Shown: one piece after another, positions 2,643 to 27,711 of the stretch
Position numbering within the stretch: position 1 is the stretch's first letter
Layout of the letters: each line of letters opens with the position of its first letter
Assembly: GCA_900314525.1 (NCBI GenBank)
Contig: OMVN01000013.1
Coordinates: 1-60,196 of the forward strand
Reading direction: 5' to 3'
Source: an uncultured Eubacteriales bacterium
GTDB taxonomy: Bacteria; Bacillota; Clostridia; Lachnospirales; Lachnospiraceae
DNA length: 60,196 nucleotides
Notes under the pieces: generated by a model
What the model was told of the DNA's origin: nothing
What the model saw: only the letters and a program-made list of their open reading frames with translations
The model's database searches: none
Made by a program: the position numbers and the translations under genes

Positions 2643-4409
2643 ATGAAAACAGAGCAAAGCGGTGACAGCAACAGTATCGTAAACCAGAAGAAAATGCTGG
2701 AGAAATATGCAACCGAACAGGGATTTACCAATCTGCGTCACTATACCGATGACGGCTGGTCAGGAACCAATTTTGACAGACCTGATTGGAAGCGTATGCT
2801 TGCAGACATTGAAGATGGCATAGTAGGATGCGTTATCGTAAAGGATATGAGCCGTATCGGACGTAATTACCTTGAGGTAGGCTTTTATACCGAAGTCCTG
2901 TTTCGAAAGAAAAATGTTCGATTTATCGCCATTTCCAATAATGTGGACAGTGCTTTAAACGACGGCAGTAACGAATTTGCCCCATTTCTTAACATTATGA
3001 ATGAATGGTATGTACGTGATACCAGCAGAAAAATCAAATCTGTACTTCATAATAAGGGAATGGAAGGAAAGCATCTGACAAGTAATGCAATCTACGGGTA
3101 CAAGAAAGACCCTGACGATCACGACCGCTGGATTATTGATGAAGAAGCTGCTGCTGTTGTCAGACGCATTTATCAGCTTATCATTCAAGGATACGGACCA
3201 TCACAGGTTGCAAGAATTCTTACCGACGAAAAGATAGAAAGACCATCTTACTATCTTACTAAGCAGGGACTTGGAACCTGTCAGGGAAGCTGTGACATGA
3301 GCAGACCTTACACATGGACTGCTTCAACTATCACAGATATGGTTAAAAAGCCTGAGTATATGGGACATACCGTTAATTTCAGAACACACAAGGATTCCTA
3401 TAAAGATACGCATTCCAGAAAGCTTGATTCTGATGACTGGATTATTTTTGAAAATACACAGGAACCCATTGTGGATGAAGAAACATGGAATATGGTACAA
3501 AAAATTCGTGAGACTAAGAGACGTCCTAACAAAAAGGGAGAACCAAACCCTTTGACTGGTTTGATGTTTTGTGCTGACTGTGGTGCCAAGATGTTTAATC
3601 ACCGCACCGGTGGTTATGAAAAGAAGGACAAAGACGGCAATCCTACCGGGAAATATACCAACGCTCAGGATAATTACCATTGTTCAACGTACAGCCTGTC
3701 CAGAAACAAATTTGAGCATAAATGCACACAGCACCATGTCCGTACAGATGTTGTTAGAGATTTACTTTTGGAAGTAATTAAAGCTGCCAGCACTTATGTG
3801 AAGGAGCATGAAGCAGAATTTGTTGAAAAGGTTCGTAATGCCACAGCGCTTCAACAGGAAAGCGAAGCTAAGGCAATGAAAAAGCATCTTTCCAGAGAGC
3901 AGAAACGTATCAATGAACTAAATACCCTCATTAAGAAAATATATGAGGACAATGTAAACGGGAAATTAAGCGACAAGCGGTTTGAAATGCTTTTGGCTGA
4001 CTACGAAGCAGAACAAAGTGAATTGGAATTATCAGTAGCTACTTTAGAAAAGGCTTTGAATGACTATCAGGAGAATGCTGATAATGTAGATAAGTTTATT
4101 GAACTGGTACATCGATACACAGATTTCACAGAGCTTACTACTCCTATGATTCATGAATTTGTTGATAAAATCGTGGTACACGAAGCGGACAAATCTACCG
4201 GCGACAGAATCCAGCAGATAGATATTTATCTTAAGTATGTCGGTAAGTTGGATGTACCGATGCCGGAGCTTACGCCCGAACAAATAAAAGAAGAAGAACG
4301 TAAACGTCGTAAACGTGCCCAAAACCGGACCTATGCCAGACGCAAATATGAACGTGAAAAGGCAGAACGTGAGGCAAAAGAAAGTGCATTATCTGAGGCA
4401 GTCAGTTAG
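2643..4409 (+). CDS. Large serine recombinase (TnpX/TndX type), N-terminus lacking the catalytic serine
   Basis: 588 residues. After seven residues the protein joins the conserved resolvase core (SGDSNSIVNQKKMLE, then KDMSRIGRNYLEVG, then EFAPFLNIMNEWYVRD). A recombinase domain follows at about 150-290, a zinc ribbon (CADCGAKM ... HC ... C at about 309-360), a coiled coil (about 375-480) and a basic tail. Family members carry the nucleophile in a Y-x-R-L-S motif just before the SGDSNSI segment. Here MKTEQ replaces it, and a TGA at 2628-2630 in frame rules out a longer start. AAGGAG at 2631-2636 supports ATG 2643. An in-frame loss of about 13 codons would explain this. The protein should bind DNA but not cut it. 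Confidence 0.85.
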   Translation: MKTEQSGDSNSIVNQKKMLEKYATEQGFTNLRHYTDDGWSGTNFDRPDWKRMLADIEDGIVGCVIVKDMSRIGRNYLEVGFYTEVLFRKKNVRFIAISNNVDSALNDGSNEFAPFLNIMNEWYVRDTSRKIKSVLHNKGMEGKHLTSNAIYGYKKDPDDHDRWIIDEEAAAVVRRIYQLIIQGYGPSQVARILTDEKIERPSYYLTKQGLGTCQGSCDMSRPYTWTASTITDMVKKPEYMGHTVNFRTHKDSYKDTHSRKLDSDDWIIFENTQEPIVDEETWNMVQKIRETKRRPNKKGEPNPLTGLMFCADCGAKMFNHRTGGYEKKDKDGNPTGKYTNAQDNYHCSTYSLSRNKFEHKCTQHHVRTDVVRDLLLEVIKAASTYVKEHEAEFVEKVRNATALQQESEAKAMKKHLSREQKRINELNTLIKKIYEDNVNGKLSDKRFEMLLADYEAEQSELELSVATLEKALNDYQENADNVDKFIELVHRYTDFTELTTPMIHEFVDKIVVHEADKSTGDRIQQIDIYLKYVGKLDVPMPELTPEQIKEEERKRRKRAQNRTYARRKYEREKAEREAKESALSEAVS

Positions 4410-4427: not shown

Positions 4428-5369
4428 TTATGAACGGCAAGCATGGCTATGACGTAAATCATGAATTCTGATTTTTTTCACGCCCGATGCCTTACAACCT
4501 CTTTCCATCTCATGACCAAGATATGATTTTGTAAAACTGAACATCCTCTCACTTTCACCTATCTCATAAAACATTCCAAGATAATCTTTAATCTCATCAC
4601 ACAAAAATGGTGGCAAAGTGATAATTCGATTACTTTTTACCGTCTTAGGTGTCGTAATAATATCCTCCCCCTTCGAGCGATGGAATGTTTTATTAATTCG
4701 CAATGTCTGCTTTTCAAAATCAAAATCGCTTGGCGTAAGTGCCAGCAACTCTCCTGAACGAATTCCCGTCCAATATAAAAGCTCAAAAGCATAATAGGAA
4801 CGCGGCTTGTCCATCATTACCTCTGCAAATTTTAGATACTCTTCTTTCGTCCAAAATTGCATCTCCTTTGATACCTCCTTTCCAATGGTTCCTGCCAGTG
4901 AGGACGGATTCTTCGGAAGATTGTAATATTTCATCGCATGTGCAAATATTGCTGTAAGCTGCGCTTGAATCGTCCTTAAATAGTCCTGAGAATATCTTTC
5001 TTCCTTTCCTTCGTCCTTAAAGGCTGCCAGAAGCTCATTCTGCCATGCAATCACATCTCTGACTTCAATTTCATCTATCTTACGATCTGCAAAATATGGC
5101 AAAATCTTTGTTCTTATGATATGACTTTTCGTCTCCCAGGTACTCTGCTTTAACCTTGATGCCTTGTCTGCTTCGTATATCTCATAGAAGCTACCAAAGG
5201 TCATATCTAGCTTCGCCTGAGCTTTTAGCATCATCTCATGTTCCCAGGCAACTGCTTCACGTTTTGTTTCAAAGCCACGTTTTTGTGTCTGCTTTCGTTT
5301 TCCTGTGATATCCGTATACCGGTATATCACACGCCACTTGCCGGTGGCATTGTCTTTATAAACCGACAT
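4428..5369 (-). pseudogene. Tyrosine recombinase (Tn916-type integrase), C-terminally truncated
   Basis: 313 residues of a mobile-element integrase. It has an N-terminal arm-binding domain (GKWRVIYRYTDITGKRKQ), a core-binding SAM-like domain at about 50-150, and a catalytic domain with the first arginine (TGIRSGELLAL) and the HDLRH box near residue 302. The frame ends six residues after HDLRH at ACRS. Family members continue about 60 residues to the second His or Trp and the nucleophilic tyrosine, so this copy cannot be active. The break lies about 30 bases from the end of the serine recombinase gene, which suggests insertion or rearrangement there. Its excisionase partner lies 18 bases upstream. 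It probably mediated integration of the island at guaA. Confidence 0.8.
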
Positions 5370-19572: not shown

Positions 19573-20481
19573 TTAAACTCTTAAATGTTTTCTAATAGTA
19601 ATCATACTTCCAATAAATCCGATTCCACCGCCAATTAACAGCGACATTGGTCCTACCACTGCAAATATATGTCTGCTGCTGATAAATGTAATTATGTTTG
19701 TAAATGACTGAAACTGTGTCATAACATAAACTACAACTTTTTTATAAATCAGTATAAGTGCTACTACTGGTATTATTGCTCCTATTAATCCGATAATCAC
19801 ACCCTCAATTATAAATGGTAGTCTTACAAATGTATCTGTGGCTCCTATAAGTTTCATGATTCGTATCTCATCTTTTCTAACAGTAATACCAATCATTACT
19901 GTATTACTGATAAGGAAAATACCAACTGCAAACAGAATTATAATAATTACTGCTGATACGTATCCTGCAATCTTTCCAAAATCAGAAAGAGTATTGGCTG
20001 TATTTTCAGAGTAATTAACCTTTCTCACACCATCAAGAGACTGTATATAGTTAACCAGCTCCTTCTGTTTTGAAAGATCTTTTAAATATACCGCATAGTT
20101 TGAAGATTCTGCCAATGGATTGTCATCCTTAAATCCATCTGCAAGTTCAGGGTCATCAGCAAAATACTGTGTTTTATACTGTTCCCAAGCCTCTTCACCC
20201 GATGTATACTCTATCTTAGTGACTTCTGATCTCTGCTTTAGTATTTCTCCTATCTCGTTTATCCTTCCATCATCAGTACCCTCATTGAAAAATACAGTTA
20301 CACATACTGATTCCTCTGCTTCTTTTACAAGATACTGAAAATTTGCCAAGATAATATAAAACAGGCCTATAAGAAATACACAGGCCGTTATTGTTCCAAT
20401 TGATGCAAGTGAAAATAATTTATTTCTTTTAATATTCTTGATGCCCTGCCCACAACTATATCCTAATGTACTAACCTTCAT
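19573..20481 (-). CDS. ftsX: Cell-division ABC transporter permease FtsX
   Basis: 302 residues. One N-terminal transmembrane helix (about 22-48), a large extracellular loop (about 50-165), and three C-terminal helices with the RKDEIRIMKLIGATD cytoplasmic segment typical of FtsX. It transmits FtsE ATP hydrolysis across the membrane to peptidoglycan hydrolases. ATG 20481 (MKVSTLGYSC) is chosen over 20508. It follows AAAAGGTGAA and overlaps the last 11 bases of ftsE, indicating translational coupling. Confidence 0.95.
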   Translation of the reverse strand: MKVSTLGYSCGQGIKNIKRNKLFSLASIGTITACVFLIGLFYIILANFQYLVKEAEESVCVTVFFNEGTDDGRINEIGEILKQRSEVTKIEYTSGEEAWEQYKTQYFADDPELADGFKDDNPLAESSNYAVYLKDLSKQKELVNYIQSLDGVRKVNYSENTANTLSDFGKIAGYVSAVIIIILFAVGIFLISNTVMIGITVRKDEIRIMKLIGATDTFVRLPFIIEGVIIGLIGAIIPVVALILIYKKVVVYVMTQFQSFTNIITFISSRHIFAVVGPMSLLIGGGIGFIGSMITIRKHLRV

Positions 20482-21157
20482 ATGAATATTCACCTTTTTT
20501 TTGATCACTTAATATTACGCCTTTGTGCATAGTAATTACACGCTTATTCATTGCATCCACAATTTCTCTGTTATGGGTAACCACAAGCACCGTTGTTCCT
20601 CGCTTGTTAATCTCCTCTAACAGTTTCATAATTTCCCATGAATTACTTGGATCAAGATTTCCTGTAGGCTCATCCGCGAGTAATATGGATGGGTTATTTA
20701 CAAGGGCTCTTGCGAGGGCAACTCTCTGCTGCTCTCCACCTGAAAGTTCCTTTGGAAAGGAACGATATTTTTCTGCAAGTCCAACAAGACCAAGCATAGC
20801 AGGAACACGTTTCTTAATTAATTTGGAAGGTGTCTCAACTACTCTCTGTGCAAAAACAATATTCTCATATACGTTTCTGTCCTTCAGAAGTCTGAAATCC
20901 TGGAACACACATCCTATCCCTCTTCTATATTCAGATACTTTTTTTCTCTTTATGTCTTCAAGACATTTGTTATTTACATATATCTTGCCACTTGTAGGCT
21001 CTAACTCCTTAAGTAGTAATTTTATAAGTGTAGACTTTCCCGAGCCACTGTTTCCAACAATAAATACAAACTCTCCATCCTCTATCTCTATATTCGCCTG
21101 TTTTATCGCTGGTGATCCCGTAGAATATGACTTACTTACGTCCTTTAATACTATCAT
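20471..21157 (-). CDS. ftsE: Cell-division ABC transporter ATPase FtsE
   Basis: 228 residues. A single ABC ATPase domain with Walker A GNSGSGKST (35-43), signature LSGGEQQRVALARAL, Walker B LLADEPTGNLDP and the FtsE-typical CVFQDFRLLKDRNVYEN Q-loop region. It forms a complex with FtsX at the membrane that gates septal or side-wall peptidoglycan hydrolysis. AAGGAA precedes the ATG. It sits 18 bases after the PucR-type regulator gene, so it probably shares that transcript. Confidence 0.96.
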   Translation of the reverse strand: MIVLKDVSKSYSTGSPAIKQANIEIEDGEFVFIVGNSGSGKSTLIKLLLKELEPTSGKIYVNNKCLEDIKRKKVSEYRRGIGCVFQDFRLLKDRNVYENIVFAQRVVETPSKLIKKRVPAMLGLVGLAEKYRSFPKELSGGEQQRVALARALVNNPSILLADEPTGNLDPSNSWEIMKLLEEINKRGTTVLVVTHNREIVDAMNKRVITMHKGVILSDQKKGEYSYEG

Positions 21158-21175
21158 TACGGTTCCTTCGCTTTC

Positions 21176-22264
21176 TTAATAATCTATAGTTTCCATATAT
21201 TTCATATATTTTACAACCATCAGTGCAATCTTAAATGTGATTGCATCATCAAATACCCTCAGATCCAGATTTGTAATCTTCTGAAGTTTATCAAGTCTGT
21301 ATACAAGTGTATTTCTATGAATATAGAGTTGTCTTGATGTCTCTGAAACATTTAAGCTGTTCTCAAAGAATTTATTGATAGTTGTAAGTGTTTCCTTGTC
21401 AAATTCATCCGGTGATTTACCGTCAAAAATTTCTTTAATAAACATCTTGCAAAGTGGAAGTGGAAGCTGATAAATAAGTCTACCGATTCCAAGTCCATTA
21501 TACGCCATAATATGTCTGTCACTGTAGAAAATCTTTCCTACATCAAGAGCAAGTCTGGCTTCCTTGTATGATCTAGATACTTCCTTAATATCGCCAATAA
21601 TTGTTCCATATGCAATGTTGACTTTTAACATTGCCTCAGTATTAATCATATCTAATAATACTTTTGCAATCTTATCTATATCTTCGTATGACTGTCCTTC
21701 TTCAATTTCTTTTACAATAATAATGTTTTTCTCAACAACAGCAGTTATGAAATCACTTGTCTTTCCAGCAAAGATTCCCTTAATTGTTTCTAATGCATTA
21801 TTATCCTTATCATTTTCTGACTCTACTATGAGTACTATTCTCTTTACATTTGTCTCTATATGAAGTTTCTTTGCTCTTGAATATATGTCTACAAGAAGCA
21901 TGTTATCAAGAAGGAGGTTTTTAACAAAGTTGTCTTTGTCATATCTCTCCTTATATGCAACTAAAAGACTCTTTATCTGGAATGCTGCCATCTTGCCAAC
22001 CATATATACATCGTCACTTGAGCCTTCTGCTAATAAAACATATTCTAATTGTCCGTCTTCGCTTACCTTAAAGAACTGGAAATCTGAGACTAACTGGCTG
22101 TCTGCCTGAGACTGCACAAATGCAACTACAGATTCCTCATTTTCTTCTGCACCTGAAAATGTCGATGCAAGAACTTTTCCCTCTGTATCACAGACACACA
22201 TATTTATTCTTGTGATGCTCTTAAGACCTTCTATTGTACTTAAAAGAATTTGATTTGATATCAT
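21176..22264 (-). CDS. PucR/CdaR-family transcriptional regulator
   Basis: 362 residues from ATG 22264, which has GGAGTGA six bases upstream; an ATG 15 bases earlier lies before that site. The C-terminal PucR helix-turn-helix is at about 300-355 (SLNVSETSRQLYIHRNTLVYRLDKLQKI). The middle resembles the GGDEF-like region of CdaR regulators (ARLALDVGKIFYSD), and the N-terminus looks like a ligand-binding sugar-diacid or GAF-like domain. Classical members sense carboxylic acids or sugar acids. Location directly before ftsE is unusual and suggests a tie between metabolism and cell-wall remodelling, or simple read-through. Effector unknown. Confidence 0.8.
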   Translation of the reverse strand: MISNQILLSTIEGLKSITRINMCVCDTEGKVLASTFSGAEENEESVVAFVQSQADSQLVSDFQFFKVSEDGQLEYVLLAEGSSDDVYMVGKMAAFQIKSLLVAYKERYDKDNFVKNLLLDNMLLVDIYSRAKKLHIETNVKRIVLIVESENDKDNNALETIKGIFAGKTSDFITAVVEKNIIIVKEIEEGQSYEDIDKIAKVLLDMINTEAMLKVNIAYGTIIGDIKEVSRSYKEARLALDVGKIFYSDRHIMAYNGLGIGRLIYQLPLPLCKMFIKEIFDGKSPDEFDKETLTTINKFFENSLNVSETSRQLYIHRNTLVYRLDKLQKITNLDLRVFDDAITFKIALMVVKYMKYMETIDY

Positions 22265-22317
22265 TCGCTTCACTCCCATAATAAAATTTATTGGTATCTT
22301 TATATTATACTATTTTG

Positions 22318-26026: not shown

Positions 26027-26515
26027 TCACAGTTCCTTTTTAAATACAAGGATTTCTGGATTTGTACTGCCGAAATTCTCTGACTGTATAAATTCCAACT
26101 TTCTGCATAGTCTTTGAGAGGATGTGTTATCTGCTTTAATTGTACATATCATTTCATCACTCAGGTAATAATCCCTTGCAAACTCAAGCAGTCTTTTGCA
26201 CGCCTCATATGCATATCCATTTCTTCTATATTTTCTGTCTATTATATATCCAAGTTCAATACCATAATCAGTATTATTAAATCCTGCCATTCCTATCATC
26301 TTACCGTTTTTCAGAAACAACCCGTACATTCCATATCCATAAAATTTATATACATTGTGAATGTATGCCTGAAATTTATCATTATTCATAAATATTTCTA
26401 TATCACTGGCAGAAATAAATTCAGAACTTTCCCCATCATCTAGTATTTTATAAATTATTAGAAAGTCTTTATTTCCAAGCTCTCTTATTATCAGTCTGTC
26501 TGTTACATCAACCGT
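26027..26515 (-). pseudogene. GNAT acetyltransferase domain continuing the HAD reading frame after a UGA
   Basis: 162 codons open from directly after the HAD stop. They read VDVTDRLIIRELGNKDFLII, then continue into the first in-frame ATG at 26387-26389, the acetyl-CoA site RKYRRNGYAYEACKRLL, and the ADNTSSQRLCRKLEF C-terminal motif of GNAT N-acetyltransferases. The family N-terminus (RLIIREL) lies before that ATG, so starting there would delete strand beta-1 and helix alpha-1. No in-frame ATG, GTG or TTG exists between the HAD UGA and 26389. The simplest reading is a former HAD-GNAT fusion split by a nonsense codon; read-through or an unusual start is possible. Acetylation substrate unknown. 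Confidence 0.65.
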
Positions 26516-27193
26516 TCATGGCTGATTTTTCTGATGGGAATATACCATCTCAAAAAATCCAAGATCAAGATCCTCATATCCTGTAATAACATAATCTGCG
26601 AGAGATGAATCAAGATGTGGCATTCCATTGTCATTTTCGAACATCACGCATACCATACCAGCATTTTTTGCTGCTTTGATTCCATTTAATGAATCTTCAA
26701 TTACAAGACACTCCGATGGATCTACATTTAATTTCTCTGCAGCTGCAAGAAATGTATCTGGAGCAGGCTTTGGATTTTTCACATCGATTCCGCTTACTCT
26801 TGCATCAAATTCATCAAATACTCCCATTTTCTTAAGAGTATTATCTATTCTGTCTATCCCTGAAGATGATGCAATTGCAAGTTTAATGTTATCAGTCTTG
26901 AGCCTCTTAATAAGATCTGCTGCTCCACTCATAACTGGATATCCTGCATCCCCGAGTATCTGTGCTACAAACCTGTCAGACATTTCCATAAGCTGGCTTT
27001 TGTCAAACGAGAGCTTATTATCCTCAATTACTTTGTCCCACATATGGTCAGTGGTACTTCCTATAAACTGATAGTAATAATTCTTGTCGAACTTTTTACC
27101 AAGGCTTTTAATAAGTACTTCAAATGCTTTCATATGGACAGGTTCACTGTCAACCAATACCCCGTCCATATCGAATATTATCGCTTTTAACAT
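26516..27193 (-). CDS. HAD-IA family phosphatase/phosphoglucomutase-like
   Basis: 225 residues. Motif I is FDMDGVLVDSEP (nucleophile D8 region), motif II is AIASSSG, the Lys is in NPKPAPDTF, and motif III is CLVIEDSLNGIKAA. The helical cap after motif I resembles beta-phosphoglucomutase and related sugar-phosphate phosphatases. Its ATG overlaps the stop of the cyclophilin gene by seven bases, indicating coupling. Its UGA at 26516-26518 is followed in the same frame by a GNAT domain without a usual start codon. Substrate cannot be told from sequence. Confidence 0.88.
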   Translation of the reverse strand: MLKAIIFDMDGVLVDSEPVHMKAFEVLIKSLGKKFDKNYYYQFIGSTTDHMWDKVIEDNKLSFDKSQLMEMSDRFVAQILGDAGYPVMSGAADLIKRLKTDNIKLAIASSSGIDRIDNTLKKMGVFDEFDARVSGIDVKNPKPAPDTFLAAAEKLNVDPSECLVIEDSLNGIKAAKNAGMVCVMFENDNGMPHLDSSLADYVITGYEDLDLGFFEMVYSHQKNQP

Positions 27194-27711
27194 TTCTCTG
27201 GTTCTCCATATTCAACGCCAAATGTATCGACTGTTACATTCTTCATCACAACATCCTCAAATGGTCTGTCCATATAATCAGTTGGCATATTTGCTACTTC
27301 ATCCACATTTTCAAGTCCTTCTATAACTTTTCCAAATGCAGCATATTCCCCATCTAAATGAGGTGCTTTTTCATGCATAATAAAAAACTGAGATCCAGCT
27401 GAATCAGGATGCATTGCTCTTGCCATAGATAAAACTCCCTTGTCATGAGCCAAGTCATTTTTAAATCCGTTGTGTGAAAATTCACCTGCTATCTGGTATC
27501 CCGGACCACCTGTTCCATTACCTTTTGGACATCCTCCCTGGATCATAAATCCTTTTATTACTCTGTGAAAAATAAGTCCGTTGTAGAATTCCTTATTTAC
27601 AAGACTTATAAAATTCTTTACTGTATTAGGTGCAACTTCTGGATAAAGTTCTGCCTTTATCACTTTTCCGCTTTCAAGTTCAAATGTTACTATTGGATTT
27701 TTGTTTTCCAT
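27187..27711 (-). CDS. Cyclophilin-type peptidyl-prolyl isomerase
   Basis: 174 residues. A cytosolic cyclophilin fold with active-site segments FHRVIKGFMIQGG (catalytic Arg, Phe), AGSQFFIM, and AFGKVIEGLENVDEVA. There is no signal peptide, so it acts in the cytosol on prolyl bonds. AGAGGTAAG precedes the ATG. It is the first gene of a coupled cyclophilin-HAD-GNAT run and lies 47 bases after the TPM-protein gene. Confidence 0.95.
   Translation of the reverse strand: MENKNPIVTFELESGKVIKAELYPEVAPNTVKNFISLVNKEFYNGLIFHRVIKGFMIQGGCPKGNGTGGPGYQIAGEFSHNGFKNDLAHDKGVLSMARAMHPDSAGSQFFIMHEKAPHLDGEYAAFGKVIEGLENVDEVANMPTDYMDRPFEDVVMKNVTVDTFGVEYGEPEKC

Follow-up and report, generated by a model that had tools for sequence, protein, structure and literature searches.

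A conserved in-frame UGA between the HAD and GNAT domains of a Lachnospiraceae gene as a probable read-through site

The window analyzed in this study is a stretch of 60,196 nucleotides of DNA from the Lachnospiraceae genus labeled g1; the labels g13, g15, g16 and g134 denote other genera. On its minus strand, a HAD phosphatase gene starts with ATG at 27193 and ends with UGA at 26518-26516, and in the minus-strand translation of 26027-27193 the same frame continues with 162 sense codons to 26030, followed by a second stop. The features of the locus are given below, with species counts referring to the 18 species in which the arrangement was found.

27187..27711 (-), upstream gene overlapping the HAD start, which we take to be a cyclophilin-type peptidyl-prolyl isomerase gene
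26516..27193 (-), stop UGA included: HAD phosphatase, beta-phosphoglucomutase-like subfamily, 225 aa (TIGR02009, 162 bits; cut-off 153.35)
26519..26521 (-), CCA (Pro) codon preceding the stop; CCA in 17/18 species
26516..26518 (-), in-frame UGA, proposed read-through site; Trp is commonest at this column in stop-free homologues
26515..26515 (-), base following the stop; A in 18/18 species
26508..26519 (-), AUG that shares bases with the UGA (AUGA) and starts a 3-codon frame, -1 to GNAT, which then closes
26027..26515 (-), GNAT acetyltransferase domain, 162 codons plus stop, start codon absent ahead of the domain

The HAD part, which ends with the codons CAG CCA TGA, matches PF00702/PF13419 and the wider subfamily model TIGR02009, while its score against the bPGM equivalog TIGR01990 (123.8) is below the curated cut-off of 189.4. 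The part beyond the UGA matches PF13302 (Acetyltransf_3; E 1.1e-19, residues 7-142) with a score of 71.9, above the gathering cut-off of 25.4, and also PF00583. An earlier note on this DNA had described 162 open codons with a full GNAT domain behind the HAD UGA in the same frame, which the translation and the PF13302 match bear out. It had also stated that no start codon precedes the GNAT domain, and this holds as well: the earliest in-frame ATG, GTG or TTG is the ATG at 26389, codon 43, inside the domain, with none in the first 30 codons. Starting GNAT at this ATG would remove the beginning of the fold.

For comparison, 44 control genes were hand-picked from the ORF list of the window. In 42 of them the in-frame extension beyond the stop was at most 85 codons. 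Besides HAD, the other long extension (234 codons) follows the TAA of 21176-22279 and enters the following gene, itself started by an ATG. This pair (20471-22279) serves as a contrast case, as the gene 21176-22279 (-) ends with TAA and is followed in the same frame by an ordinary neighbor, presumably FtsE-like, starting with ATG at 21157.

The structure predicted for the read-through protein had a pLDDT of 84 and a pTM of 0.79, with residues 254-286 below 50. In this model, the last HAD helix spans residues 211-221 and the first GNAT strand residues 227-230, immediately past residue 226; the UGA would therefore sit between the two domains. A structure search returned only HAD proteins by description among the matches listed (50 of 1665), so that these matches do not address the domain pairing.

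The HAD-UGA-GNAT arrangement was found in 18 species from four Lachnospiraceae genera, namely in 9/10 g1, 5/5 g15, 2/2 g13 and 2/2 g16 genomes. In all 18 the stop is UGA, GNAT follows in the HAD frame, and 11 codons lie between the UGA and the GNAT Arg-Glu, a spacing unaltered by indels. Because of this conservation the arrangement is not due to chance, and since the two genomes of g13 are closely related to each other, as are those of g16, the 18 species represent fewer independent cases. Within g1, HAD identity to the window is 49-68% and the GNAT frames are open for 154-180 codons; in the tenth g1 genome (G003) the best GNAT match was weak (E 1e-8) and HAD was not adjacent. The cyclophilin-type neighbor lies upstream in 16/18 species, the two missing ones being both g16 species. 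Eight named records of the UGA type comprise metagenome-type or uncultured Clostridiales and Lachnospiraceae, including one from goat caecum and one Lachnospira sp.; those with RUG names are presumably rumen genomes.

A search of 397 family genomes with the read-through protein matched both domains without a stop in about 20 genera, and one TGA was present in the matches from g1, g13, g15, g16 and g134. In the only g134 genome (G142, locus L044), the TGA stands at another column, six codons further on (GAA ACG TGA AGG), inside the GNAT start. L044 is outside the 18 and was placed among the sense-codon homologues in the column counts; its TGA may reflect a mutation, an error or a further site of read-through. 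Intact HAD-GNAT fusions, for which the earlier note had proposed to search in relatives, thus occur in many genera; across all homologues without a stop at the column of the UGA, the codon there is most often TGG. Relatives in which GNAT is a gene of its own with a regular start codon, named there as a refuting finding, were not encountered in the loci read. Adjacent HAD and GNAT genes in different frames were likewise absent from the extra loci taken for that question. Among 51 named loci no out-of-frame pair was seen either: all 27 with a HAD match have it in the GNAT frame, and of the 24 without such a match 21 have at least 89 in-frame residues ahead of GNAT. Frameshift and out-of-frame two-gene models were rejected, as no such adjacent pair occurred in the loci examined.

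The junction was read in 145 distinct homologues, 42 of them full-length HAD-GNAT and 103 others. The latter derive from 110 loci of a second family search after removal of six duplicates and one locus not covering the junction (L223); this search matched 164/397 genomes, part of which were read at the junction. L020 and L021 were left out (same genomes as L004 and L008), as was L067, for which the ORF bounds we had set extended beyond its start. In the 127 homologues without a stop at the column (the stop-free homologues), TGG (Trp) is found there in 68 cases (3/24 full-length, 65/103 others), Cys in two, and TAA or TAG in none; Pro stands immediately before the column in 123. Among the nearest full-length fusions Val is commonest (11/24, versus 3/24 for Trp). 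The alignment indicates that the UGA occupies the place of a residue in the continuous protein of relatives, most often Trp. Many of the other homologues are mini-HAD fusions (e.g. L078:2084-3004; among named Lachnospiraceae, L071-L117) without the first half of HAD, including what we take from its motif to be the catalytic Asp. In such fusions GNAT belongs to the fusion by necessity, and the mini-HAD remnant seems to have been turned into a helper domain.

The surroundings of the UGA are nearly fixed at a few positions. The codon ahead of it is CCA in 17/18 species (GCG in the exception), and hence in 17/17 Pro codons at this place, versus 21/123 at the same place in stop-free homologues. Among the other Pro codons of the 18 ORFs, CCA accounts for 29/184, and ORFs of the GC-rich g13 and g16 contain 0-1 such codons each. 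The genes of the window use CCA more than any other Pro codon (253/476), so that CCA would be unsurprising in this species alone. The base after the stop is A in 18/18 species versus 62/127 stop-free homologues, and the last two residues are Glu-Pro in 13 and Gln-Pro in four species (17/18), versus 11/127. Fisher tests, which ignore kinship, gave p values of 9e-12 for CCA, 1e-5 for the next-base A and 6e-14 for Glu/Gln-Pro. Since HAD dS was >2 or not computable in 5/6 g1 pairs tested, the third bases have not been kept by recent descent alone. Just upstream of CCA, the third base differs among species in the Gly and Glu codons, and apart from CCA before and A after the UGA there is little fixation at the nucleotide level nearby.

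By joining CCA to UGA, an overlapping AUG is created in 17 species (GUG in the one exception), out of the GNAT frame. The frame of this overlapping start closes after 3-86 codons, and its length is not common to the 18 species.

Selection on the GNAT half was analyzed in 12 pairs, with dN/dS computable in seven (range 0.07-0.32). The four closest pairs gave 0.110 (L051/L052), 0.074 (L036/L039), 0.169 (L028/L030) and 0.140 (L009/L011, dS 1.9), with HAD values of 0.072-0.143 in the same pairs. In the eight more distant pairs, GNAT values were 0.21-0.32 in three and not computable in five due to saturated dS. For the window's pair (L004/L006), 0.317 was obtained for GNAT and 0.084 for HAD at a dS near saturation, and several distant pairs show faster evolution in GNAT than in HAD. 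For uninterrupted fusions, four pairs were compared, and GNAT dN/dS was 0.02-0.16 where computable (3/4). Judged by these ratios, the GNAT part is under purifying selection, and we infer that it is translated and used.

On a tree of 42 rows, the UGA label (L044 included) needs four changes, with a shuffled mean of 14.1. On a tree of 39 rows, in which L044 and two long rows are absent (dropped: L044, L047, L062, L067), the UGA rows need three changes, and their grouping in one clade is weakly rejected (AU p 0.035). Multiple gains or losses of the stop are therefore probable; the tree gives no direction for these changes, and its two g13 rows form a close pair, as do its two g16 rows.

The reading we favor, and consider likely, is programmed UGA read-through, probably with insertion of Trp, by which one gene would give both HAD and HAD-GNAT. 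One gene would encode a two-domain HAD-GNAT protein with a UGA at the domain boundary. Most ribosomes would stop there and release the HAD enzyme as the main product, presumably useful in its short form, while some would decode the UGA as an amino acid, most likely as Trp by tRNA-Trp, and continue to HAD-GNAT as a minor or regulated product. The stop would be kept leaky by the sequence of Glu/Gln-Pro, CCA and UGA, followed by A. We prefer read-through because it needs no start codon, which 7/18 species lack within GNAT codons 1-4; it also fits the fixed 11-codon spacing and the Trp-rich column. Regarding the features by which programmed read-through is commonly judged, a same-frame coding extension is conserved in 18/18 species, this extension is under purifying selection, and both stop identity (UGA only) and local context (CCA, A, Glu/Gln-Pro) are conserved. 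A downstream stimulatory RNA structure was not detected: RNAalifold predicted 0 conserved pairs across the nine g1 junctions. Such structures are needed in some read-through cases, not in all. Taken from sequence comparison, the conserved in-frame UGA inside this bacterial two-domain gene is probably leaky. Of the three options offered by the earlier note, read-through with two products is therefore the best supported, whereas a mutation or error was rejected and a start coupled to the HAD stop is the weaker one, as set out below.

Published data cover parts of this context. According to the available part of PMC11126739, Trp is the residue mostly inserted when UGA is read through in E. coli, and the last two residues matter for read-through in work cited there; the same part reports for E. 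coli that the base before the stop is without effect and that G after the stop increases read-through. The conserved A is left unexplained by these data, since G and not A raised read-through. Trp insertion does not account for the preference for CCA. Older studies in E. coli reportedly dealt with A after UGA and with acidic penultimate residues. Glu-Pro is among the C-terminal dipeptides favoring trans-translation at stops in the accessible section of a review (PMC3985003), and a UGA reporter in B. subtilis with 6% read-through is cited in the excerpt at hand of PMC7918605. As stated in the available text of PMC7246954, NNA codons before UGA are favored mainly through overlapping AUG starts. 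Either CCA is favored for decoding, or the overlapping AUG has some further role.

An extension of the proposed read-through would be that the UGA acts as a sensor switch, with read-through at a Trp column and slow release at Glu/Gln-Pro-UGA making the ratio of HAD-GNAT to HAD depend on how much Trp-tRNA or RF2 is available (or on stress). We regard this as speculative and rather unlikely. If true, stop redefinition rather than frameshifting would serve bacteria as a regulated means of recoding that Lachnospiraceae acquired more than once, and the overlapping AUG would belong to the signal.

The main rival to read-through remains reinitiation at scattered in-frame codons, where a separate GNAT would be restarted after termination within a few codons, at GTG, TTG, ATG or a near-cognate codon, its frame being inherited from an ancestral fusion. 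An ATG, GTG or TTG lies within the first four codons after the UGA in 11/18 species (14/18 counting near-cognates), 4/5 g15 species having an in-frame ATG at codon 3 past the stop, and a start-like overlap with the stop (17 AUG, 1 GUG) is usual for coupled genes in the portion of PMC7246954 available. However, these starts vary in position (codons 2, 3 and 4), seven species including the window have none in the first four codons, and the overlapping AUG does not share the GNAT frame. SD-like 4-mers within 20 bases before the stop occur in 8/18 species only, and the absence of indels between UGA and GNAT in 18/18 also speaks against a separately started gene. A non-standard start at the HAD stop, as the earlier note had considered, was weakened accordingly by the lack of a common start place and by the 7/18 species without ATG, GTG or TTG there. 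On balance, reinitiation appears improbable.

Since the overlapping AUG lies outside the GNAT frame by one position and runs into a stop after 3-86 codons, a GNAT start at this codon would need a +1 shift. Reinitiation at the AUG followed by such a frameshift could draw on the AUGAA that CCA before and A after the UGA fix in 17/18 species. Yet the AUG frame ends after 3 to 86 codons without a shared length, and no shared slippery or shift site was seen at the junctions compared, which makes this explanation very unlikely.

A decaying fusion or an assembly error, with the GNAT half as a relic, is hardly credible. Most bacterial in-frame stops are short-lived polymorphisms according to the accessible part of PMC7918605, and the faster evolution of GNAT in several distant pairs would suit decay, but the same codon recurs in 18 species, the g1 GNAT frames remain open for 154-180 codons, and dN/dS is 0.07-0.32. 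For the group of 18 this explanation is already refuted. A recent nonsense mutation or a sequence error at the UGA, another option of the earlier note, likewise fails, as the same UGA was found in separate assemblies of 18 species and the GNAT part is under purifying selection.

That the UGA is read as selenocysteine, or as a general Trp codon in these genomes, is the least probable explanation and practically negligible. UGA is the codon concerned, and SelB exceeded the cut-off in both g16 genomes, but in none of the 16 g1, g13 and g15 genomes, for which selenocysteine was rejected; among 19 genomes searched, only three passed (g16 and g134). Cys, moreover, stands at the column in just 2/127 stop-free homologues. 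Against a general Trp code, UGA ends 4/44 of the picked window genes (three besides HAD), and these 44 genes use TGG 89 times and contain no in-frame TGA ahead of the stop. In addition, ARAGORN identified tRNA-Trp with a CCA anticodon in 12/20 stretches chosen for this purpose, 11 of them from g1, g15 or g16, and in g13 this tRNA was detected by sequence pattern. The genetic code does not look like table 4 (UGA=Trp).

Reading of the sequences revealed a tRNA-Trp type with two G-U pairs atop the anticodon stem in g1, g13, g15, g16 and many stop-free genera; the pattern matched 226/397 genomes, and the genus spread was taken among the matches listed. A special tRNA-Trp as the cause was rejected, as the same type is common in genera without the stop. 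This tRNA-Trp, whose anticodon stem seems weak at its upper end, is widespread in Lachnospiraceae (e.g. stretches L259-L276).

Several known systems resemble the proposed read-through in part. Cellular stop-codon read-through, e.g. of mammalian MDH1 (PMC5133446, as far as its available text goes), likewise involves an in-frame extension past a partly read stop with two isoforms expected; here, in contrast, a whole enzyme domain in a bacterium is concerned, uninterrupted fusions exist in relatives, and the case is known from sequence. Conserved bacterial in-frame stops such as the Paenibacillus TAG example in the accessible part of PMC7918605 share the orthologous stop with purifying selection around it, but the stops described there are mostly short-lived (71% of pairs without mismatch around the stop), whereas the UGA persists within g1 at 49-68% HAD identity to the window and is present in four genera, g1 included. 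In bacterial prfB (RF2), an in-frame UGA also controls access to the remaining gene, but by a +1 frameshift, while the HAD-GNAT frame is unchanged; the available text of PMC5009743 presents a same-frame UGA version of RF2 as not known. The closest likeness is found in the HAD-GNAT and mini-HAD-GNAT fusions of Lachnospiraceae themselves, which share domain order and junction and differ by a sense codon, most often TGG, instead of the stop.

In the open-access literature searched, we found nothing on the HAD-GNAT stop and no paper combining 'stop codon readthrough' with Lachnospiraceae. To our knowledge, bacterial chromosomal genes using conserved stop read-through for two functional enzymes are rarely documented. 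The locus offers a testable case in which a codon is preserved as a stop while the sequence beyond it is also preserved, and natural controls exist in relatives with the same protein and TGG replacing TGA. Gene callers may split such genes and assign a false internal start codon to the second part.

Elsewhere in the window, the ORF 4428-5369 (-), presumably tyrosine-integrase-like, appears shortened at the C terminus and directly borders the ORF 2643-4409 (+), which we take to be serine-recombinase-like, as if an element had been inserted.
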